Assembly: GCA_016926955.1 (NCBI GenBank)
Contig: JAFGNN010000059.1
Location: 1 to 64,000 of the forward strand
Source of the DNA: Spirochaetales bacterium
GTDB lineage: Bacteria > Spirochaetota > Spirochaetia > Treponematales > UBA12059
Direction: 5' to 3'
DNA length: 64,000 nucleotides
The notes beneath the pieces were generated by a model, which did not search any database, was not told the DNA's origin, and was given only the letters and a program-made list of their open reading frames with translations. A program made the translations under genes and the position numbers. Below, in pieces: positions 5,520 to 62,649 of the stretch. Position 1 is the first letter of the stretch; each line of letters begins with the position of its first letter.

Positions 5520-6293
5520 ATGGGCCGAATAATAGTTTTCGTAAACCAGAAAGGCGGCGTCGGCAAGACGACCTCCGCCATCAACCTCGGCGCCTACCTC
5601 GCGCTGGCGGGCAAGCGCACCCTCCTCGTCGACTTCGATCCGCAGGCGAACCTCACGAGCGGCGTCGGCGGCGCGGGCGCCTCGAAGGGCATCTACGAGG
5701 TCATCGCCTCGGGACTCCCCATCAAGGACGCGATAGTCGCGACGAAGGTGAAGGACCTCCACCTGGTACCCTCCTCCATAGACCTCTCGGGCGCCACCGT
5801 CGAGCTTGTCGACAAGGATGACCGCAACGACTACCTGAAGCGCGTCCTCGAAAGCATACGGAGCGACTACGACTTCATCCTGATCGACTGCCCGCCCTCG
5901 CTCGGCATCCTCACCCTCAACGGCCTCATGGCCGCGGACGAGGTGCTGGTGCCGCTGCAGTGCGAATACTTCGCGCTCGAAGGGCTTTCGCTCATCCTCC
6001 AGACCGTCCAGCTGGTGCAGAAGGGCATGAACCCCCGGCTCAGGATAGGCGGCATCCTCTTTACCATGTACGATTCGCGAACGCGGCTCGCCCAGGACGT
6101 GGTCCAGCAGGTGACCGAGTACTTCAAGGACAAGGTGTTCCGCACCATCGTGCCGCGCAACGTCCGGCTCTCCGAGGCGCCAAGCCATGGCGTGCCCATC
6201 TGCCTCTACGATCCCGGCTGCATCGGCGCGCGCTCCTACGAGAAGCTGGCGACCGAGCTGCTCGACCGCGACGCGCCGGGCGGGGCAGCCTGA
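5520..6293 (+). CDS. parA: ParA/Soj chromosome-partitioning ATPase
   Basis: 257 residues. Deviant Walker A KGGVGKTT at residues 11-18, Walker A' DFDPQANLT near 39-47 and Walker B LIDCPPSLG near 120-128, as in ParA/Soj. It binds DNA when ATP-bound and, with ParB, moves replication origins apart. It lacks the extra N-terminal HTH of plasmid type Ia ParA, consistent with a chromosomal copy. GGAAGGA precedes the ATG. parB overlaps its stop codon by 1 base. Confidence 0.96.
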   Translation: MGRIIVFVNQKGGVGKTTSAINLGAYLALAGKRTLLVDFDPQANLTSGVGGAGASKGIYEVIASGLPIKDAIVATKVKDLHLVPSSIDLSGATVELVDKDDRNDYLKRVLESIRSDYDFILIDCPPSLGILTLNGLMAADEVLVPLQCEYFALEGLSLILQTVQLVQKGMNPRLRIGGILFTMYDSRTRLAQDVVQQVTEYFKDKVFRTIVPRNVRLSEAPSHGVPICLYDPGCIGARSYEKLATELLDRDAPGGAA

Positions 6294-7222
6294 TGGCCAC
6301 GAAGCAGTTCGGCCTCGGGAAGGGCCTCGGCGCCCTGATTCCCGACAACGTGATGGAACCGACCCCCGCTCCGACCGACCGGAGCGGCCCTTCGGACGCC
6401 CCCGCCGCCGTCGAACCCCGCGGAGACGGCGTCCGCTCGGTGCCCCTGAAACGCGTCGCGCCGAATCCCGGCCAGCCCCGCAAGAGCTTCACGGACGAGG
6501 GACTCGCGGAGCTCGCAGAATCGATCAAGCTGCACGGCGTCATCCAGCCCCTCATCGTCGAGGACGACGGGGCGGGCGGCTTCCGCATCGTCGCCGGCGA
6601 GCGCCGCTGGCGCGCCTGCGGCATCGCGGGGCTCAAGGACGTGCCCGTCATCGTCCGCTCCTACTCCGACGAGAAGCGCCTCGAGATAGCCCTGATCGAG
6701 AACGTCCAGCGCGAGGACCTGAATCCGGTGGAGGAGGCCGAGGCCTACAAGGCCCTGATGTCCCTGACCGGCTGCACCCAGGAGGAGGCCGCGGCGAAGG
6801 TGGGCAAGAGCCGGCCCGCGGTGGCGAACGCGCTCCGCATCCTCAAGCTGCCCGCGGAGGCCCTCCAGGCGGTGCGCGACGGCGCCCTCTCCGCCGGACA
6901 CGCCAAGGCCCTGCTGATGGCCCTGAACCCCTCGGACCAGATCCTGCTGGCCCGCCGCTGCGTCGAGGAGAACCTCAACGTCAGGCAGGCGGAGAGCCTC
7001 GCGCAGGAGCTCAACAAGGGCCACAAGGGTCCCGCCCACCCGAAGCCCGCGGAGCACGCGCCCAAACGGCTCGACCCGGATCTGGCCGCCGTCGAGCAGC
7101 GCCTGATCGGCCTCCTCGGCACCAAGGTGTCCATAAAGGGCGACGCGTCCAAGGGCTCCATCCTGATCGAGTACTTCAGCTCCGAGGACCTCGACCGCAT
7201 CTACGAGATCATCAACGGCTAA
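6293..7222 (+). CDS. parB: ParB/Spo0J centromere-binding CTPase
   Basis: 309 residues. It opens with FGLGKGLGALIPD, typical of chromosomal ParB. The ParB N-terminal domain follows, with NPGQPRKSF and the CTP-binding motif GERRWRAC near residues 100-107, then the HTH around 160-185 (CTQEEAAAKVGKSRPAVANALRILKLP) and a C-terminal dimerisation region after a basic Pro-rich linker. It loads on parS sites and slides as a CTP clamp. Translationally coupled to parA (TGATG junction). No good parS site was seen in this window. Confidence 0.96.
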   Translation: MATKQFGLGKGLGALIPDNVMEPTPAPTDRSGPSDAPAAVEPRGDGVRSVPLKRVAPNPGQPRKSFTDEGLAELAESIKLHGVIQPLIVEDDGAGGFRIVAGERRWRACGIAGLKDVPVIVRSYSDEKRLEIALIENVQREDLNPVEEAEAYKALMSLTGCTQEEAAAKVGKSRPAVANALRILKLPAEALQAVRDGALSAGHAKALLMALNPSDQILLARRCVEENLNVRQAESLAQELNKGHKGPAHPKPAEHAPKRLDPDLAAVEQRLIGLLGTKVSIKGDASKGSILIEYFSSEDLDRIYEIING

Positions 7223-7223
7223 G

Positions 7224-7401
7224 CGCCAAGGCGCTCCGCGCCTTGGCGGCGACGAAGGGCTCAAGGCCCCTCGTCGATCTCCCGGATCCGCGCATGGTTC
7301 GGGCCCCCGCCGCGAGGGGCGCGCGAACTGCGCGCCCTTTCGGAAGATCGACGAAGCGCAAAGCGCTTCGTCGCCGCGACAGGCGCTTCGCGCCCGTCGC
7401 G
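7224..7401. repeat. Array of five intergenic hairpins between parB and eno
   Basis: Five inverted repeats fill nearly all the space between the parB stop and the eno promoter: an 11-bp perfect stem at 7224-7248; CGACGAAGGGC at 7250-7260 with a partner at 7266-7276 (one mismatch); an 8-bp stem at 7317-7337; CGACGAAGCGC at 7349-7359 with a perfect partner at 7363-7373; and a stem at 7375-7401 with one mismatch. The CGACGA hairpins recur at 43594-43618 and 61031-61050, so this is a dispersed palindromic element. One or more may also terminate parAB transcription. Confidence 0.75.
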
Positions 7402-7402
7402 C

Positions 7403-8786
<1,384 letters not shown>

Positions 8787-8824
8787 CATCGACGTCGCGG
8801 ACTTTCCGCGATGTGGTTGTGAGC

Positions 8825-8848
8825 CGGAACGGGCGCCAACCCGTTCCG
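8825..8848 (+). terminator. Hairpin after eno, first
   Basis: CGGAACGGG (8825-8833) and CCCGTTCCG (8840-8848) form a perfect 9-bp stem with a 6-nt loop, 38 bp after the enolase stop. No T-run follows, so it may be a processing or stability hairpin rather than a full terminator. Confidence 0.45.
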
Positions 8849-8851
8849 TAC

Positions 8852-8879
8852 CGCGAGGCCGCCGCAAGGCGGCCTCGCG
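8852..8879 (+). repeat. Perfect 12-bp hairpin after eno
   Basis: CGCGAGGCCGCC (8852-8863), loop GCAA, then GGCGGCCTCGCG (8868-8879). It lies exactly against the left border of the second enolase tail copy, so it may mark the recombination join. Confidence 0.6.
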
Positions 8880-8958
8880 AGTATCCCGGAATGAAGGCTT
8901 TCTATAACGTAAAGAAGTGAAATCGGCGTCGCGGGCTTTCCGCAACGTGCTTGCGAGC
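8879..8958 (+). pseudogene. Relic of a second enolase 3' end and its trailer
   Basis: Codons from 8879 read [13 protein letters not shown] then TGA at 8918-8920, identical in protein to the last 13 residues of eno. Seven of the 14 codons, counting the stop, differ from the live gene, and every change is synonymous (for example TAC/TAT, CCG/CCC, AAA/AAG, GTG/GTA, TAA/TGA). The similarity continues about 38 bp past the stop, at a constant offset of 134 bp. Nothing upstream of 8879 matches enolase. The copy has no start and cannot be expressed as a protein. Confidence 0.85.
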
Positions 8959-12410: not shown

Positions 12411-12517
12411 GCCTCCAGTATACGGTATTGCCCGTACACCGTCGACGGACGGCGCAGCGCTTGCGGAAGCCGGCGCGAGCCTGGCACCAAGTGTCGTTCG
12501 CGTGGCGACGGGGAAGC

Positions 12518-12558
12518 GGGGGCCCGGGGGAGAAGGGGCGGCCGCCCCGTCGCCCCCG
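12518..12558. repeat. GC-rich palindromic element sharing 19 bp with the 43.5-kb element
   Basis: GGGGGCCCGGGGGAGAAGG at 12518-12536 is identical to 43549-43567. Here it encloses a perfect 14-bp palindrome (12535-12548), and CCGGGGG (12524-12530) pairs with CCCCCGG (12552-12558). It ends 2 bp from the thioredoxin-like stop codon, so it may act as that gene's terminator. Confidence 0.65.
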
Positions 12559-12559
12559 G

Positions 12560-12901
12560 TCAGTCCCCGAAGAGCATCGAGTAGTACCGGTCGATCTTCG
12601 CGCCGAGCTCGGCGACGCCGAAATTGCGGGCCTCCCGGACGGTCTCGCGACCCTCGAAGAAGACGAGCACGGCGGGGACGGCGAAGACCGAGAGCTGGCC
12701 CGCCGCTTCGGGCACGGCGGCTGCGTCGAGGTAGCGGACCGCCATGCGGGGGAAGTGTTCCCGCGCGAGGGCGAGCACCTTAGGCTTCATCGAGGCGCAG
12801 ACGCCGCAGCTCGGCGTGGAGACGTAGACGAGGAGGGCCTTCTCGGAGCGGACCAGGTCCTGGAGCCCGTTCCAGGAGTCCACCGTAATCATGCTTTCCA
12901 T
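12560..12901 (-). CDS. Thioredoxin-like protein with CGVC active site
   Basis: 113 residues with a thioredoxin fold: the redox pair C32-x-x-C35 in STPSCGVCASMKP, and the cis-Pro segment SVFAVPAVLVFFEGRE. Likely a cytosolic thiol-disulfide protein; no signal peptide. ATG 12901 lies 7 nt after an extended -10 element on the minus strand (TGATAAAAA at 12909-12917), so the mRNA may be leaderless. An internal ATG at 12892 is the alternative. Confidence 0.88.
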   Translation of the reverse strand: MESMITVDSWNGLQDLVRSEKALLVYVSTPSCGVCASMKPKVLALAREHFPRMAVRYLDAAAVPEAAGQLSVFAVPAVLVFFEGRETVREARNFGVAELGAKIDRYYSMLFGD

Positions 12902-39120: not shown

Positions 39121-40779
39121 ATGGCCATAATCACCATCATCCTCGAGCTCGTCGGCGCCCTCGGCCTCTTCCTCTACGGAATGCAGGTCCTCTCCGACTC
39201 CATCCAGCGCGCCGCGGGCGACCGCCTCAAGCGCGCCCTCAACTTCATGACGGGCAAGCCGCTCGCCGCGCTCGCCACGGGCGTCGGAGTGACCACCCTC
39301 ATCCAGTCGTCATCCGCCACGACGGTGATGGTGGTCAGCTTCGTCAACGCGGGGCTCCTTTCGCTCAAGCAGGCCGTAGGCGTCATTTTCGGGGCGAACA
39401 TCGGCACGACGACGACCGCCTGGATCGTGTCGCTCGTCGGCTTCAAATTCTCCATGTCGATGATCGCCGTGCCGCTCGTCGGTTTCGGCTTCATATTGGC
39501 CACCTTCGTCAAGAAGAACCGCCGCGTGAAGGACTGGGGCGAAACCGCCATCGGCTTCGGCATCCTCTTCATCGGCCTCGACTTCCTCTCGCACGCCATC
39601 CCGAAGCCCGGTCCCGAGGTACTCCACTTCCTGACCGAATTCTCGCGACTCGGCTATGGAGCCACGCTGATCGCCGTCGTGGTCGGCGCGCTGTTCACCG
39701 TTCTGGTGCATTCGTCGAGCGCCTCGACCGCGGTCTTCATCACGCTCGCGGTGGAGGGCGTGGTCGACTTCCGCCTGGCCGCCGCCCTGGTGCTCGGCGC
39801 GAACATCGGCACCACCATCGACGCCTTCCTGGCCTCGATCGGCACCAAGGTGGCCGCCCGGCGCACCGCCTGGGTTCACATCCTGTTCAACGTGCTCGGC
39901 AGCGTGTGGGCAGTAGCGCTCTTCGGCCCCTTCCTGAAGCTGGTCGACCTCATGTGGCCGGGCCCCGTCGAGGCCAGCGTGGCCCAGCACATCGCCATGT
40001 TGCACACCGTCTTCAACACCGTGAACGCGCTCATATTCCTTCCCTTCATGAACCAGCTGGCGGACCTCGTCACCCGACTCGTGAAGGAAAAGCCCGGCGA
40101 GAACGAGCGGAGCCGCCTCGTGTATGTCGCGGCGCCCATAGTCTCCAGCCCCGAGCTCAACCTGCTCACCGCGCAGAAGGAGATCGCGGACATGGCCGGC
40201 CTGGCGCGGGACATGTTCTCCCGCGTGCGCGACGACACGCGCAATCCCGCGGCGGACCACGCCGCGAACCTCGAGGAGTACGGGCGCCTCGAGAACTATG
40301 CCGACCAGATGCGCGAGGAACTCGCCCGCTTCCTGCTCGAATGCGCAGGCCGCGAAATGTCCGAGGCCAGCCAGAACAACGTGGGGCTCATGCTCCGCAT
40401 CGTCGACGAGCTGGAGAGCGTCACTGACCAGGCCTACAGCCTTGCCCTGATCATCGAGCGCACGCGCAAGAAGGGCATCGCGCTGCCGAAGGACGAGATC
40501 GATTCCCTGCAGCCGTACGGCCTGATCGTCGAGCAGTTCCTGCGCTTCGTTTCCGACAACGTCAACAAGCCGATCACCGAGGACCAGCTTTCCGTCGCCG
40601 CGGAATACGAGGACAAGATCGACGCCATGCGCGACGAGCTCAAGAAGCGCGCCCGCAAGCGCCTGTCCGCGGGAGCCGAGGTCAAGGCGGAACTCGCCAT
40701 CATCGACCTGGTGCGGCACATCGAGAAGATCGGCGACCACGCGTTCGGCGTGGCGAGGGCGCTCAGGGAATTCCGGTAA
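39121..40779 (+). CDS. Na/Pi cotransporter family protein with C-terminal PhoU-like domain (copy 1)
   Basis: 552 residues. Membrane half (1-310): LVGALGLFLYGMQVLSDSIQ, TLIQSSSATTVMVVSFVNAGLL and FGANIGTTTTAWI, with an inverted second repeat (LVHSSSASTAVFITLA, LGANIGTTIDAFLAS); QSSS motifs are the phosphate/sodium sites of the NptA family. Residues about 345-552 are PhoU-like helices. Probably a low-affinity phosphate carrier. GGAGCCGCGC precedes the ATG. Confidence 0.92.
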   Translation: MAIITIILELVGALGLFLYGMQVLSDSIQRAAGDRLKRALNFMTGKPLAALATGVGVTTLIQSSSATTVMVVSFVNAGLLSLKQAVGVIFGANIGTTTTAWIVSLVGFKFSMSMIAVPLVGFGFILATFVKKNRRVKDWGETAIGFGILFIGLDFLSHAIPKPGPEVLHFLTEFSRLGYGATLIAVVVGALFTVLVHSSSASTAVFITLAVEGVVDFRLAAALVLGANIGTTIDAFLASIGTKVAARRTAWVHILFNVLGSVWAVALFGPFLKLVDLMWPGPVEASVAQHIAMLHTVFNTVNALIFLPFMNQLADLVTRLVKEKPGENERSRLVYVAAPIVSSPELNLLTAQKEIADMAGLARDMFSRVRDDTRNPAADHAANLEEYGRLENYADQMREELARFLLECAGREMSEASQNNVGLMLRIVDELESVTDQAYSLALIIERTRKKGIALPKDEIDSLQPYGLIVEQFLRFVSDNVNKPITEDQLSVAAEYEDKIDAMRDELKKRARKRLSAGAEVKAELAIIDLVRHIEKIGDHAFGVARALREFR

Positions 40780-40788
40780 ACGCCGCCG

Positions 40789-42456
40789 ATGGACGGAGCC
40801 TTCCTGACAGTCCCCCTCAAGCTCGCGGGCGCGCTCGCGATGTTCCTCTTCGGCATACAGTACGCGAGCGAGGGACTCCAGCGCGCGGCAGGCGAGCGCC
40901 TCCAGAAAGCGATCGACTTCATGACCCGCAACACGCTGGTCGCTACGCTGACCGGCTTCGTCGTGACAGTCCTGCTGCAATCGTCCTCCGCGGCGACCGT
41001 CATGGTGGTTTCCTTCTCCAGCGCGGGACTGCTGGGCCTGCCCCAGGCCATCGGCGTCATCATGGGCGCGAACATCGGCACCACCGTGACGGGCTGGATC
41101 ATCGCCGCCGTCGGCATCTCGAAATTCTCGATCGCCCTGCTGGCCATGCCCCTCTTCGGGGCCGGCTATTTCATGACCCTGGCGCGCAAGCGCCGCTGGC
41201 TGCGCAACTACGGCGAGGGCCTCATGGGCTTCGCCATGGTGTTCCTCGGCCTCGAATTCCTGGCCGCCGCGATCCCGACGCCCTCGGGAGAGGCCTTGCT
41301 CTTCCTCGAAGCCCTGAGCCATCGGGGCTGGGCGGCGGTCGGCGCAGCGGCCGTGGTCGGCTCTCTGTTCACCATGCTGATCAACGCTTCGAGCGCGACC
41401 ATCGCAATAGCCATCGGCTTCGCGTCGAAGGGCATCATCAATTTCGAGATGGCCGCCGCCCTCGTGGTCGGCGCCAACATCGGCACCACCATCAACTCCT
41501 TCCTGGCCTCGATCGGCGGCAACGTGCACGCGAAGCGCGCGGCCTGGTCGCACATCCTCTTCAATGTCTTCGGGGGTATCTGGGTCGTCGCCGCGCTCAA
41601 GCCCTTCTCCGCGCTCGTGGACCTGGTAGTTCCGGGACCGATCACCACGACGTCCATCGGCGCCCACATCGCCATGCTCCACACCATGTTCAACCTGGCC
41701 AACACCGTGGCGCTCTTTCCCCTGGTGCGGCCATACGCCCGGCTGGTTTCCTGGCTGTTCAGGGAGCGGCCCGGCGCGGCGGAGAGCCTGCCCACCCGCT
41801 ATCGCGCCCCGCCGCCGGTCGATTCGGCGGAGCTCAATCTCGTCTCCGCGCGCAAGGAGATTTCCGACCTGGCAGGCCTCGCCCGCGACATGTTCGCCGA
41901 CTACGCCGCCTCCTTCGCCGATCCGAAGGCAGACTCCCAGGCCCTGCTCTCGCGCTCCGCGCGACGCGAGGACTACGCCGACCAGATGCGCGAAGGCATC
42001 TCGAAATTCCTCTTCGAGTGCGCGCGCCGCGACCTCTCCGAGAATTCCCAGGAGTCGCTCGGCCGCCTGTTCCGCATGGTCGACGACCTGGAGGGCATCA
42101 CCGACGATTGCCACTCCCTCGCCCTGATCCATGACCGCCTGCGCGCCAAGGACGTGACCCTGCCGCGTTCCGAACGGGAGGAGCTCGAACCGGTGGCCGG
42201 GACCGTGGAACGCTTCCTGGACTTCGTGGCGCTCAACGCGGGCGCCGCGATCGACGAGGCGCAGCTGGCCGAGGCCGCCGAATTCGAGGACTCCATCGAT
42301 GACATGCGCTCGGCCCTCCGCAAGAAAGCCCGGAAACGGCTCAAGCGGGGCGCGGAAGTGCGCGCCGAACTCGCCGTCATCGACCTGGCGCGCCACCTCG
42401 AGAAGATCGGCGATCGCGCCTTCTCCGTGGCCCAGGAGCTCCGCGCGCTCCGCTGA
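40789..42456 (+). CDS. Na/Pi cotransporter family protein with C-terminal PhoU-like domain (copy 2)
   Basis: 555 residues with the same layout as the neighbour 9 bp upstream: LAGALAMFLFGIQYASEGLQRAAGERL, LLQSSSAATVMVVSFSSAGLLG, MGANIGTTVTGWI, LVVGANIGTTINSFLAS and a PhoU-like C-terminal half ending HLEKIGDRAFSVAQELRAL. The two genes are clearly a tandem duplication that has diverged, and the pair is transcribed together. Both keep both QSSS-type motifs, so both are probably functional. Confidence 0.92.
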   Translation: MDGAFLTVPLKLAGALAMFLFGIQYASEGLQRAAGERLQKAIDFMTRNTLVATLTGFVVTVLLQSSSAATVMVVSFSSAGLLGLPQAIGVIMGANIGTTVTGWIIAAVGISKFSIALLAMPLFGAGYFMTLARKRRWLRNYGEGLMGFAMVFLGLEFLAAAIPTPSGEALLFLEALSHRGWAAVGAAAVVGSLFTMLINASSATIAIAIGFASKGIINFEMAAALVVGANIGTTINSFLASIGGNVHAKRAAWSHILFNVFGGIWVVAALKPFSALVDLVVPGPITTTSIGAHIAMLHTMFNLANTVALFPLVRPYARLVSWLFRERPGAAESLPTRYRAPPPVDSAELNLVSARKEISDLAGLARDMFADYAASFADPKADSQALLSRSARREDYADQMREGISKFLFECARRDLSENSQESLGRLFRMVDDLEGITDDCHSLALIHDRLRAKDVTLPRSEREELEPVAGTVERFLDFVALNAGAAIDEAQLAEAAEFEDSIDDMRSALRKKARKRLKRGAEVRAELAVIDLARHLEKIGDRAFSVAQELRALR

Positions 42457-42484: not shown

Positions 42485-42521
42485 CAGGCCGTCCGTTCCG
42501 GGACACCCGGGGGAGGCGCGC

Positions 42522-43520
42522 ATGGAGTTCGAACGCGAATACCGGGAGCGCTGCGCCAAGCGCGCGCTCGACGAGGCGGCGACCGACGCGGCGCTGCGGA
42601 CGGTCGAGGTTTTCGCGGCGACGCTCGGCGAGGCGGGAAGCTCCCTCGCGGCCGCATCCTTGGCCGAGCTCGAGCGCGCCCTGGCCGTGCGCGTGGCGGG
42701 CGGCTGGGGAGCTGCGGAGCTGGTCGCGGTCGCGCGCTGGTACATGGTGGCGGGCCTCGACGCGATATCCATCAGGCTGCTCGCCTACCTGCTGCCGATC
42801 GGAGTCCTGCCGGACCATGCCAAACGCCTCGAAACCCTTCACGGCGCCGAAGTCCAAAGGCGCGTCATGGAGCTGGTTCGGATACCGCCGGAAGGCGCGC
42901 CGCCCGAGGCCTACCCGGCAGCGACCGCCGCCTTCGTGAAGGCGCTCGAGGCGGAGCTCGGCCCCGAAAAGGCCCGGAGGGTCCTCGCGTGGAACGTCCA
43001 CGGCATTCCGGCCGGCGCCCATGCCGAGGAGCGCGAGCGTTTCCTGACCGCGCCCTCCATCGCGGCCTGGCTTGCCGGCTGGCACGAAAGGCAGGTGGCC
43101 GAGCTCCAGCGCTTCGCGGATTCAGGCGAGCTCTGGTACGAGCAGCGAATCACGCAGGACGTGGTCGACTGGGTGCGCGAAAATCCGGAAATCCAGGGCG
43201 GCGTAGTCGAGGGGAACCGGATCTTCCGGCAGAAGATACCCTACGACCCGGACCGCTTCCTGCGTTCGACCGATCCGCTCGAGCGAAGGCGGCTCGCCTG
43301 CCACTGCCCGCTCGCCGCCGCGAGCATCACGGAAACCGAGGCCGAAGTGCCGGCCGCCTGGTGCGCCTGCTCCTCGGGCTACGACAAGTTCCCCTTCGAC
43401 GTGGTTTTCGGCGTCGAGACCGAGGTCGAGGTGCTCGAGTCGGTGCTCGCGGGCGACGGGCGCTGCCGCTTCGCCATAACGATTCCGGAAAGCGTGCTGG
43501 CCCTGAAGCCGGCGGTCTGA
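42522..43520 (+). CDS. Soluble protein with Cys-rich C-terminal domain, unknown
   Basis: 332 residues. Helical N-terminal 130 residues, then EELWYEQRITQ-like sequence and a C-terminal part with ACHCPLAAASI, AAWCACSSGYDKFPFDVVFG and VLESVLAGDGRCRFAITIPE. The last segment has the look of small-ligand or thiol-hydrolase-like domains that end in a GxxxCxF strand, but I cannot assign it (DUF6144 is a possibility). Five cysteines could bind metal. GGGGGAGGCGCGC gives a strong ribosome-binding site. Confidence 0.65.
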   Translation: MEFEREYRERCAKRALDEAATDAALRTVEVFAATLGEAGSSLAAASLAELERALAVRVAGGWGAAELVAVARWYMVAGLDAISIRLLAYLLPIGVLPDHAKRLETLHGAEVQRRVMELVRIPPEGAPPEAYPAATAAFVKALEAELGPEKARRVLAWNVHGIPAGAHAEERERFLTAPSIAAWLAGWHERQVAELQRFADSGELWYEQRITQDVVDWVRENPEIQGGVVEGNRIFRQKIPYDPDRFLRSTDPLERRRLACHCPLAAASITETEAEVPAAWCACSSGYDKFPFDVVFGVETEVEVLESVLAGDGRCRFAITIPESVLALKPAV

Positions 43521-43523
43521 GAT

Positions 43524-43673
43524 CCCGGCCGGCCGGGGCCGGGAACGAGGGGGCCCGGGGGAGAAGGCGCGATGTCGCAAGGCGACTTCGCGGCGACGAA
43601 GGGCCAAGCCCTTCGTCGATTCCCCGGAGGGCTCGCGCGCTCCTCTCGGAACGCGCGAGCCCCTTTCCCCCGG
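43524..43673. repeat. Composite palindromic element with nested hairpins
   Basis: Between the convergent ends of the Cys-rich gene and tldE lie: a 7-bp stem 43524-43543; CCGGGGG (43555-43561) pairing with CCCCCGG (43667-43673) as an outer arm; a stem-loop 43568-43592 (one T-T mismatch); CGACGAAGGGC (43594-43604) with its perfect partner 43608-43618; and GGGCTCGCGCG (43629-43639) with CGCGCGAGCCC (43652-43662). The order and sequences match the parB-eno element in part, and 43549-43567 equals 12518-12536. Confidence 0.75.
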
Positions 43674-43680
43674 ACGATTC

Positions 43681-45036
43681 TTACAGCGTGAAGGTCATGC
43701 CGTCGATGAGCATGCCCGGCACCAGGCTGCCGCCCAGGTCGCGGTTCACGTAGCTGCCTGTCTCGGCGATGAAGGAGCGGCGACAGCCTACGGCCTCGAG
43801 CTTGTCGCCCCAGAGGCGGTAGAGGCTCTCGTCGAAGCGCAGGTCCTTGATGGGCGAGACGATCCTGCCGTCCTCCACCCAGACGCAGGCGAAGCGGGTC
43901 ATGCCCGTGACGCGCGCGGAGTCGAAGTCCGACCAGTTGAGGTAGTGGACGTTCGAGACGTAGAGCCCCGTGCCGAGCGCCTCGAGCGCCTTTCCGTCGT
44001 CGAAGTCGCCTGAGGCCACCGAGGGCGAGCGGACGCCTTCCCAATCGGGGGCCCCGTTCGGGACGGCGCCGTACTGCTTCGCCGAGCGGGACGAGACGAT
44101 GGCGTTGGCGAACGCGCCGCCCTCGATCAGGGGCAGGCGCTCGGGCGCGAGCTCGCCGAGTTCGTTGAAGCGCGGTTCCGCGCCGAGCGCGAAGTCCTGG
44201 GCGAGCGAGAATTTCGGGGAGAGCGTCTTGCGGCCGTCGCGGAGGGCCGACCAGGCGCTGGAGCCTTCGCGGTAGGCGCGTTCGGAGAGGCCCATGCGCG
44301 AGAAGAAGGGCACGAAGGCGTCGACCGCGTCCGGCGAGAGCCAGACCCGGTAGGCGCCGGGCGGCAGGACGCGCTCCGGTCGCTTCAGTGCTTCGAGGCG
44401 GGGCAGCTCGGCGGCGAGTTGGCGGCGCCATTCGGCTCCGTCCCACTCGCGGCCCGCGTAGCAGGACTTTACGGCCTTGCCGTTCGGCAGGCAGGCCGAC
44501 CAGTCGGTGGCGAATATCTCCGTGGCGAACCAGTGGCGGGCGCCCGAGCTGGCCGCGGCGCCGCGGCAGACCGGGCCCTGGGAGTGGAGGCCGACGAAGT
44601 CGGCGTCCGCGCTGTCGAGAACGTCGCCGGGTTCGAGCACTTCCTCCACCAGGCGGGAGGGATCGGGCATGCGGCCGGAGAATTCCTCGCGCGAGCTTCC
44701 CGAGGCCGCCGGGAGCGTCTGGTAGGGGTCCTCCGGCAGAAGCGCGGCTTGGTCCCTGAGACGCGCGACCAGGGCGACGCAGGCTTTCGCGTCGGCGTCC
44801 GCATCGCCGGAAAGGTTGACCCCGGAACCCAGGGTGCGGCCGCCCGCGTAGAAGCGCAGGGTCAGGTCGGCTCGCTCGACGGAGCCGAGCTGGCGGACCT
44901 TGCCGTGGTTGAAGCGGAGGAAGGTCGAATCCTCGCCCCCGAAATCGACGGCCAAAGCCTCGCCGCCCTTCAGCGCGCCGAAGAGCGCGTCGCATGCCCG
45001 GCCGAAGCGGGCTTCCATGTCCATCTTCGCGCTCAT
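43681..45036 (-). CDS. tldE: TldE/PmbA-type metallopeptidase subunit
   Basis: 451 residues of the TldD/PmbA family without the HExxxH metal site. Family stretches: LRFNHGKVRQLGSVE, LRFYAGGRTLGSGVNLSGD, LSERAYREGSSAWSALRDGRKTLSPKFSL, VSNVHYLNWSDFDSARVTGMTRFACVWVEDGRIVSPI. It pairs with TldD to form the protease known from microcin maturation and CcdA degradation. Starts with ATGA overlap on the tldD stop. Confidence 0.9.
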   Translation of the reverse strand: MSAKMDMEARFGRACDALFGALKGGEALAVDFGGEDSTFLRFNHGKVRQLGSVERADLTLRFYAGGRTLGSGVNLSGDADADAKACVALVARLRDQAALLPEDPYQTLPAASGSSREEFSGRMPDPSRLVEEVLEPGDVLDSADADFVGLHSQGPVCRGAAASSGARHWFATEIFATDWSACLPNGKAVKSCYAGREWDGAEWRRQLAAELPRLEALKRPERVLPPGAYRVWLSPDAVDAFVPFFSRMGLSERAYREGSSAWSALRDGRKTLSPKFSLAQDFALGAEPRFNELGELAPERLPLIEGGAFANAIVSSRSAKQYGAVPNGAPDWEGVRSPSVASGDFDDGKALEALGTGLYVSNVHYLNWSDFDSARVTGMTRFACVWVEDGRIVSPIKDLRFDESLYRLWGDKLEAVGCRRSFIAETGSYVNRDLGGSLVPGMLIDGMTFTL

Positions 45037-60982: not shown

Positions 60983-61030
60983 GGCGCGCCGCCGACGGGC
61001 GCGAAGCTCGGGCGCAGCCCCTCTGACGAT

Positions 61031-61079
61031 CGACGAGCGCAAACTCGTCGCCGTCAACGGAGGCGCAGCGCCCGTTGAC
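61031..61079. repeat. Two tandem hairpins of the dispersed family
   Basis: CGACGAG (61031-61037) with CTCGTCG (61044-61050), loop CGCAAA, then GTCAACGG (61053-61060) with CCGTTGAC (61072-61079). The order and the GATCGACGA...CGCAAA core match the last two hairpins of the parB-eno array (7347-7401). Lies between convergent genes. Confidence 0.7.
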
Positions 61080-61080
61080 G

Positions 61081-62541
61081 CTAGAGCTTGTCGATCAACA
61101 TCGAGCACTTGCCCGAAGGGATCGGCAGGGTCTTTTTCTTCTTGTTGAGCACATTGATGGTGAAATAGTAGAGCTTCTCGCTCTCCATGTGGATTTCCCA
61201 GCCCCGCCCGCTCTTGTTCGAGAGGATGGTGACCATGTTGCGCTTGAGCGACATGTTCTCGATGCCCATGATTTCGAGGTTCGGGATGATCCAGTCCACC
61301 GTCTTGCGCGGCAGGCTGATCGACAGGCCGACGATGTTCTCGATCATCAGCGCGATGGTCGACAGGGCGCCGAAGGCCAGGAACTGCGATCGGGGCCACT
61401 CGGGCCTGTCGGGCCATACCGCCTTGCCCTCGTTCTGGGGCTGGTACGCTTCCCAGATGACCTGGCGCTGCTCCCGCTCGGCGCGGTCCCTTTCGCGCTC
61501 GCGTTCGCCGTTCGCGACGTGCATGGTGTCCAGCACGAAGTACAGGTGCCGGATGGCGCATTCGCGAGCCAGCTCCCAGTGGTTGTACTTTTCGAGCCCC
61601 TTGATGACCATATAGGTGAAGGGCGGCAGCACGGAGCCGCGGAAGCCCATGCCGCGCTTGTCGTAGTTCGGATCGTCCGCGGCGAGGGTCGGGAAGGGGT
61701 GCTCCGTTCCGAATGCCTGCGGATCCGTCAGGTGCGCTATCAGCTTCTCCGCGCGGTCTTCATTGGGGATCTCGGCCAGGAGCGGCCAGAACGCGCCGAC
61801 GGTCCTCACGGAGGTCTGACGCTCCGCCTCGTCCAGGTCGAAATAGAAGCCTTTGTCGTGGTTCCACATCATGGAGTTGATGCGGGTTTTCAGGCTGAAG
61901 TACGCGCGCTTGTACTGGAAGCTGGCTTCCTTGTCGTTGAGGATGTCCGCCAGCGCCGACATGTAGAGCGCGTTCGTGGCCATGATCGCGTTGAAGTCCG
62001 CGTAGTAGACGGCCTTGCCGCGCGGCGAATTCGGCATGCCCGTGGCCGCCAGGGGCGCCGCGTAGAGGCCATTTTCCCGCTTCCAGGTCCGCTCAACCCA
62101 TTGATGGTACTTGTGGAGGGCAGGCATGACCTCCTTCACGCGCTTCTTGTTGGCCGACTTGTGGTAAAGGTTGTACTCGGCCCATGCGAACAGGGGCGGG
62201 GCCAGTCCTTCGGGATTGTCCTTGTCGACCACGGGCTCGCCGGTTTCGAGGTCGTATGAGCCCCGGATGGCACCGGATTCCTCCTGCTTGCCGTACAGGG
62301 CGTCGAGCCCGTTCGAGGCCGCGTAGAGCCGGTTCGAGTACACGAGAAAGAACGAGGCGAAAACCTGGTCGATCTGGTCGAGCGTGCGCGAGGGCGGGTA
62401 ATGGAAGAACTTGTCTTTGGGGAATCCCTTCCGGGCGTCGCCGACAGTCCAAAAGTCGGCTATCCACGCCCACGACTTGTCGTAGATGTCCACGAAGTCC
62501 TGGTCGTAGAAATGCACCCGCGGGAAATCGCGTTTGTTCAC
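61081..62541 (-). CDS. Trehalase/GH63-like glycoside hydrolase
   Basis: 486 residues from GTG 62541 behind GAGGAGCCCATC. (alpha/alpha)6-barrel features of the trehalase and GH63 group: SWAWIADFWTVGDARKGFP, DQIDQVFASFFLVYSNRLY, FAWAEYNLYHKSANKKRVKEVMPALHKYHQWVERTWKRENGLY and GFRGSVLPPFTYMVIKGLEKY. Probably cleaves alpha-glucosides; trehalose or isomaltose are candidates. No signal peptide. Its strong promoter suggests regulated high expression. Confidence 0.72.
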   Translation of the reverse strand: MNKRDFPRVHFYDQDFVDIYDKSWAWIADFWTVGDARKGFPKDKFFHYPPSRTLDQIDQVFASFFLVYSNRLYAASNGLDALYGKQEESGAIRGSYDLETGEPVVDKDNPEGLAPPLFAWAEYNLYHKSANKKRVKEVMPALHKYHQWVERTWKRENGLYAAPLAATGMPNSPRGKAVYYADFNAIMATNALYMSALADILNDKEASFQYKRAYFSLKTRINSMMWNHDKGFYFDLDEAERQTSVRTVGAFWPLLAEIPNEDRAEKLIAHLTDPQAFGTEHPFPTLAADDPNYDKRGMGFRGSVLPPFTYMVIKGLEKYNHWELARECAIRHLYFVLDTMHVANGERERERDRAEREQRQVIWEAYQPQNEGKAVWPDRPEWPRSQFLAFGALSTIALMIENIVGLSISLPRKTVDWIIPNLEIMGIENMSLKRNMVTILSNKSGRGWEIHMESEKLYYFTINVLNKKKKTLPIPSGKCSMLIDKL

Positions 62542-62649
62542 GTGATGGGCTCCTCGCTCGTATACGAACCGCACGACCGTCAAGCCGCCGCGGAATCCTG
62601 CACGAAATGACAGATTACTACAGAGAATGGCAATATTGGACAGTTTCAG

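Follow-up and report, generated by a model that had tools for sequence, protein, structure and literature searches.

A family of paired hairpins, here called class 1, is repeated in the genome of a Spirochaetales bacterium and is very probably a new REP-like family (repetitive extragenic palindrome) with neither a GTAG or CGTC tag nor a flanking transposase. The elements recur between genes, about a third of them adjoin a stop codon, they avoid gaps between divergent genes, they persist at orthologous sites, and their sequence changes keep the base pairs. We tentatively propose that class 1 elements act as hairpin barriers at gene 3′ ends. In such a role, each of two converging transcripts would carry the hairpins in its 3′ part, where they would hinder read-through into the opposing gene and could shield RNA ends from exonucleases; copies would have spread by some mechanism, and the complementarity of the arms would be held either by selection or by one arm templating the other. 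Taken jointly, the REP-like identity and the barrier function are slightly favored on balance.

The 43.5-kb composite palindrome and its repeated unit

The window is the whole stretch of DNA analyzed, 64,000 nucleotides in length. Between the convergent genes 42522–43520 (+) and 43681–45036 (−), the latter of which we take to be TldD/E-like, lies a region (43521–43680) that is predicted to fold strongly on either strand, at −107.8 kcal/mol (z = −5.9) and −110.0 kcal/mol (z = −6.7), with none of 200 shuffles doing as well. The initial annotation had proposed a composite palindrome with outer arms and nested stems at this place, and our analysis bears this out: positions 43523–43673 comprise four hairpins and a pair of outer arms (13 nt, 85% complementary). 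The stems it named exist; hairpin A, half of the repeated unit, had gone unnamed. The components are:

43523..43544, + strand: separate GGCC-rich hairpin, directly after the stop of gene 42522–43520 (+); not preserved in this form in the sister genome G001
43549..43567, + strand: 19-mer GGGGGCCCGGGGGAGAAGG (class 2 tail and arm), by sequence match
43555..43567, + strand: left outer arm, by sequence a class 2 descending arm and part of the 19-mer
43565..43625, + strand: whole class 1 element (covariance model R1, 70.0 bits; among the 20 copies used to build R1)
43568..43592, + strand: class 1 hairpin A (CGCGATGTCGC / GCGACTTCGCG), with one T-T mismatch on the + strand, A-A on the other
43594..43618, + strand: class 1 hairpin B (CGACGAAGGGC caa GCCCTTCGTCG), perfect over 11 bp
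43629..43662, + strand: third inner hairpin, GGGCTCGCGCG..CGCGCGAGCCC, kept in two sister genomes
43661..43673, + strand: right outer arm, by sequence a class 2 ascending arm, shortly past the stop of gene 43681–45036 (−)

The class 1 core (43568–43618) consists of hairpin A, one G and hairpin B (CGACGAAG..CTTCGTCG). Perfect hairpins with arms of 11 and a loop of 3–5 occur four times in the window, 43594–43618 being one of them. A DNA search of the bacterium's own genome (G000) with the 43.5-kb region returned many partial matches centered on hairpins A and B, and a gapped hairpin-B pattern gave 44 matches and none in a reversed control; about half of the 44 have complementary tips by eye, and the remainder look like chance. 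Among 20 aligned copies the feet GCGnnA..TnnCGG and CGACGAAG..CTTCGTCG are common, with few exceptions, and the tips vary yet stay complementary, with changes on both sides in 12 of 19 pairs. The covariance model R1 was built from these 20 own-genome copies, which match it by construction; with E-values that are rough, it gave 48 matches in G000 at E ≤ 0.01 and 83 at E ≤ 1, opposite-strand echoes included. Four clear matches lie in the window, all of them in the R1 training set: the 43.5-kb copy and

7221..7283, + strand: class 1 element, 73.3 bits; overlaps the TAA stop of gene 6293–7222
7342..7404, − strand: class 1 element, 70.9 bits; shares the gap with 7221..7283, in opposite orientation
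61024..61083, − strand: class 1 element, 42.6 bits; overlaps the TAG stop of gene 61081–62583 (−)

Rfam gave two chance-level matches in window positions 42500–45000, none at the gathering score. A reading of class 1 as a paired DNA-uptake word is out, since the word CGACGAAG is not over-represented singly (24 occurrences in the window against 23.6 expected).

Several neighboring features were seen along the way. Three strong hairpins cluster at 8792–8882, after gene 7488–8786, where the R1 match is weak (24.8 bits). Tandem runs of the element or its parts occur at L107 and in G001 at C16:55239–55599, C17:165862–166191 and C2:52621–52835, with units of about 52, 60, 67 and 43 bases. ARAGORN called a tRNA-Gly on a class 1 element (L155:1487–1573), most likely falsely. 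Gene finders therefore warrant caution with this family, as this tRNA call and the stop codons supplied by some copies show. Window positions 39121–42456 hold two neighboring genes for similar membrane proteins, presumably Na/phosphate cotransporter paralogues.

The outer arms lead to a second type of hairpin, class 2. The initial annotation had reported a 19-bp identity between 43549–43567 and 12518–12536, the former between convergent genes and the latter at a gene end. Both the identity, which is exact, and the gene context stand, and these are the sole window sites of GGGGGCCCGGGGGAGAAGG at ≤3 mismatches (0.14 expected). The features at 12.5 kb are:

12518..12536, + strand: second exact copy of the 19-mer, by sequence match
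12524..12559, − strand: plain class 2 hairpin, CCGGGGG..CCCCCGG around GGGGCGGCCGCCCC, directly after the TGA of gene 12560–12901 (−); in the training set of the structure model R2

Genome-wide (3.38 Mb) the 19-mer has four exact copies, so it is not confined to these two places. At ≤3 mismatches there was no excess (15 matches, against 17 for the sequence read backwards); only exact and near-exact matches are therefore meaningful, and the 19-mer was rejected as a sequence-defined family. Because the sequence search was uninformative in this respect, R2 was used instead. Class 2 takes two forms, CCGGGGG..GAAGG..CCTTCTCCCCCGG followed by GCCCCC, and CTGGGGAAGAA..TTCTCCCCCAG followed by GCCCCC. 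R2 gave 16 matches in G000, 18 in G001 and 12 in a third genome of the genus, G002, counts that include both strands of some hairpins and the eight copies from which R2 was built. A gene 3′ end lies on the expected side in 8 of 9 loci that carry the 19-mer or something close to it. In the remaining locus, L002, the class 2 hairpin sits inside a called gene on the opposite strand, which counts against our preferred reading; the gene call there is perhaps wrong. In a second set, class 2 starts ≤14 nt from the upstream same-strand stop in 9 of 11 loci, some of them mutually orthologous.

Since the 19-mer and the outer arms belong to class 2, the 43.5-kb composite looks, by sequence, like a class 1 pair and a third hairpin set in the loop of a class 2 hairpin, a nesting judged from the arms rather than from an insertion junction.

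That these are chance palindromes of a GC-rich genome is close to inconceivable. The 12.5-kb fold taken alone (12500–12570, + strand) is unexceptional (z = −1.65; 13 of 200 shuffles as good), and a hairpin of ≥8 pairs is present in 68 of 300 genic 140-nt stretches picked at random, both of which would suit a chance origin; the fold z-scores at 43.5 kb, the repeated family and the orthologous sites contradict it.

Placement at gene ends and the question of termination

Positions relative to genes were determined for 42 copies in G000 and 49 in G001, taken from matches at E ≤ 1e-4 with tandem, overlapping and some weaker copies dropped by hand; the two sets are not independent, as 19 orthologous sites are in both. 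Genes were called with a custom codon-usage finder trained on the window rather than with a standard tool. No copy has its midpoint inside a called gene (0/42 and 0/49); some overlap a gene's last bases. Class 1 favors convergent gaps and avoids divergent ones: convergent, codirectional and divergent gaps number 17, 16 and 6 of 39 in G000 and 27, 16 and 4 of 47 in G001, compared with 17, 42 and 30 among 89 element-free gaps of ≥60 nt. The divergent depletion has p = 0.009 and 6e-5 by gap count and 0.018 and 1.8e-4 by length (G000 and G001, respectively). The 6 + 4 copies that do lie in divergent gaps count against the preferred reading.

The elements are also oriented. The B side faces a gene 3′ end in 71 of 89 cases, and in codirectional gaps the transcript would read B before A in 25 of 32 (p = 0.002). 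The upstream stop is touched by 29 of 91 copies (stop lying at most 20 nt within the element or at most 3 nt ahead of it), and in 22 of these 29 the model-bounded first base of the element falls within the stop codon. The touched stop is TAG in 23 of 29, against 7 of 61 window genes (Fisher p = 3e-10); in the fetched loci, where the elements themselves lie, TAG ends 79 of 252 genes, so the contrast is weaker there. The same TAG junction was present in 2 of 6 loci viewed from a second genus, g9. At L089 and L147 the upstream gene of G001 ends in a TAG right ahead of the element; G000 lacks this TAG, and its frame continues into the hairpin A loop.

The initial annotation had raised termination as a possible role. 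The gene-end placement of both classes fits such a role; ordinary intrinsic termination is not supported, because a T-run is absent after class 1 hairpins as a rule and some gaps that contain an element have a hairpin + T-tract site apart from it. On the 3′ side of hairpin B the sequence is mostly AT(C/T)NCC; under a loose T rule, a few copies in G001 qualify. Under a loose hairpin + T-tract rule, 11 of 39 and 17 of 47 gaps with an element scored positive, compared with 7 of 84 gaps elsewhere, an uneven comparison in which element gaps were tested on both strands and codirectional control gaps on one, some counted sites are the elements' own arms, and some gaps are counted repeatedly. At most, this suggests that the elements often stand at the ends of transcription units, beside a separate terminator. 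A stricter rule placed a hairpin + T-tract at 1 of 31 window gene ends.

A related reading takes the elements as U-tract-independent intrinsic terminators, clustered hairpins that would work bidirectionally between convergent genes. We regard it as rather unlikely. Two strong hairpins do adjoin the stop codon, and hairpin clusters, most often of two, are described as coinciding with RNA-seq ends without needing poly-U (Gupta and Pal, PMC8355165). Class 1 resembles the clusters of that account in having two adjacent hairpins near a stop and no U-tract; it differs in that those were checked on RNA-seq ends, whereas class 1 is known from sequence, and in that class 1 copies share their sequence over dozens of sites. 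Against this reading stand the genome's classical hairpin + T-tract sites, some of which share a gap with an element, and the conserved hairpin feet, which are not expected of ordinary terminators. Two or more strong hairpins were found by a simple rule at 4 of 31 window gene ends, which also speaks against it and is a lower bound, as two known elements, at 12.5 and 61.0 kb, escape the rule. The idea that class 1 is this genome's general terminator was rejected: under that same rule, a strong hairpin lies at 9 of 31 window gene ends, compared with the 68 of 300 random genic stretches above and 3 of 11 divergent gaps.

Conservation and paired changes at orthologous sites

The initial annotation would have counted its reading as refuted had the 19-mer been confined to the 43.5- and 12.5-kb sites and had relatives lacked both. 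Neither is the case: the genome has four exact copies, and G001 keeps a hairpin at both sites, without the exact 19-mer. At 43.5 kb the outer arms, the third hairpin, A and B are all kept, the hairpin A mismatch being a C-G pair in G001 and the hairpin B tip one pair shorter; at 12.5 kb the hairpin is kept with changes. In G002 (L131) A and B are absent from the 43.5-kb site, with the junction between ATTCC words; this may be a deletion or, as the assembly is in 530 contigs, a collapse.

Comparison of flanks between G000 and G001 identified 19 orthologous pairs among the 42 copies, 17 matched on both flanks and two (L085, L097) on one; the one-sided L099 and L193 were not used. At these sites, 23 base pairs of hairpins A and B differ on both arms between the two genomes yet remain paired, with at least one such change at 12 of the 19 sites. 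With the structure taken from the G000 sequence, shuffling gave a mean of 2.4 such changes, and 0 of 5000 shuffles reached 23. The remaining pairs comprise 363 unchanged, 11 changed on one side and still paired, 11 broken, 0 doubly broken and 7 gapped. In an alignment of 103 distinct rows, 97.5% of 1850 cells pair and both-side changes occur in 14 of 19 pairs; covariation is 0.389, against 0.103 shuffled and ≤0.047 slid, in an alignment fitted to this structure. Two sites count against the preferred reading: at L083/L220 hairpin B shows decay, and at the 7.2-kb site it is disrupted in G001.

The kind of pairing that is kept bears on the level at which the palindrome matters. The 1850 cells divide into 1783 Watson-Crick, 21 G-U and 46 unpaired, so that G-U makes up 21 of 1804 paired cells; for tRNAs in the fetched loci it makes up 21 of 244 stem pairs, from 11 ARAGORN calls of which several come from other genomes and one is false, lying on the element. 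Some pair columns flip between C-G and G-C without G-U forms (for example 58 CG, 35 GC, 3 other). The rarity of G-U counts against the preferred reading, since more would be tolerated if selection acted on RNA alone. Together with the C-G/G-C flips, it points to upkeep of the palindrome at the DNA level, and the placement points to a role in transcripts.

These data give some weight to a DNA-level palindrome, which we nonetheless consider doubtful: the element would matter, or would merely be maintained, as double-stranded or cruciform DNA, through binding of a nucleoid or topoisomerase protein or through template switching in replication, by which one arm would be copied onto the other and stay perfect without selection. 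The G-U scarcity and the column flips favor it, and the tandem runs of units and the deletion-like G002 junction fit replication slippage at hairpins. On its own it leaves the stop-codon junction and the avoidance of divergent gaps unexplained; the G-U comparison is based on few tRNAs, and there is no known protein partner. The sister-genome orthologues described here provide a natural set for asking which of the two, selection on RNA or template switching in DNA, maintains such palindromes, a question that concerns REPs generally.

At L199, the G000-only copy examined, a search for an empty site in G001 found none: the orthologous place has no R1 match and carries two hairpins of quite different sequence directly after the same TAG. 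This replacement, and the fact that both arms change together, nearly always from Watson-Crick to Watson-Crick, underlie a more speculative proposal, one that we think improbable as a whole: hairpin pairs would stay at fixed gene ends while their sequence is replaced, arm-to-arm copying rather than transposition would drive their evolution, and class 1 would be nested in class 2.

Distribution and relation to known repeats

R1 matched 9 of 39 genomes, own genome included, and 30 had no match. Within the genus there are the 48 matches in G000, 75–76 in G001 and 26 in G002; three drawn genomes of g9 have 39, 53 and 25, and three further genomes have 1–2 each. A second draw of 198 genomes of the class, under stricter filters, yielded two that matched, both of the genus and one of them the own genome.

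Such patchiness would be expected of non-autonomous mobile DNA, a REP doublet or miniature element moved by a transposase, with the gene-end position reflecting tolerated insertion. Three Y1 transposase genes are present in G000, and the subtype with GCGACCGC stems (eight G000 copies) is more alike than the rest, with a mean identity of 0.84 and up to 0.95 including loops, against 0.66 and up to 0.83 for the other G000 copies. Stop-supplying TAG termini are likewise reported for GTAG REPs (PMC3733652). We judge this explanation unlikely all the same. An element lies within ~3 kb in 2 of 20 Y1-transposase neighborhoods (G000, G001, G002, G010 and G015, leaving out one further Y1 gene of G010), about the density expectation of roughly 2–3 in the 121,901 bases concerned. 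Lacking such enrichment, RAYT-driven mobility was rejected. G017 has 25 copies and no Y1 match, the L199 site is not empty in G001, and 19 of 42 G000 copies occupy the same place in G001, which implies that any movement is slow.

The preferred assignment, a REP-like family, agrees with the broad sense of that term: class 1 consists of many dispersed intergenic palindromes that sit at gene 3′ ends and avoid divergent gaps. As described for REPs, BIMEs and REPINs of the GTAG superfamily (Di Nocera 2013, PMC3733652; Nunvar 2010, PMC2817692), these are short extragenic palindromes, often paired. REPs in PMC3733652 lie between convergent or codirectional genes near stops, and GTAG termini often supply the TAG; class 1 shares with the GTAG REPs of those two accounts the convergent and codirectional gaps, the nearness to stops, the occasional supply of TAG, and clustering. 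Unlike them, class 1 has no GTAG as a rule: GTAG stands beside the hairpin in 4 of 91 copies, the commonest four nucleotides before hairpin A are CTAG (12/91), and GGAG lies on the B side in 29 of 91. It also differs from RAYT-associated REPs in having no consistent flanking Y1 transposase. A BIME or REPIN joins two inverted REPs; class 1 hairpins A and B differ in sequence, but PMC3733652 also describes REP heterodimers. In contrast to the GTAG REPs as there described, A and B are fixed partners joined by one G.

CGTC REPs, which by the account in PMC3733652 have no transposase and for which Spirochaetes is one of five phyla listed, resemble class 1 in forming dimers, in having no dedicated transposase and in their gene-end placement. 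Theirs is an unpaired CGTC before an 8–9 bp stem starting with AT (PMC3733652); in class 1, CGTCG lies within the stem, stems start with C-G, and an unpaired CGTC stands beside the hairpin in 2 of 91 copies. The stem-loops reported as enriched between convergent genes (PMC1590033) show the same placement bias and are a general class, whereas class 1 is one repeated family. Class 1 thus fits within REP-like repeats broadly and outside both tagged superfamilies. Our literature search found no published report of this family, which adds a defined set of REP-like elements to the poorly studied uncultured spirochaetes.

Other small repeats occur in the same genomes. In G000, two of the three Y1 genes (L075 and L076, on C14 and C82) lie beside many CTGTCCC words, a different repeat, and the flanking word CGGAAGCTTCGTGACACCG, perhaps another small repeat, is common to L018, L019 and L034 near the elements.
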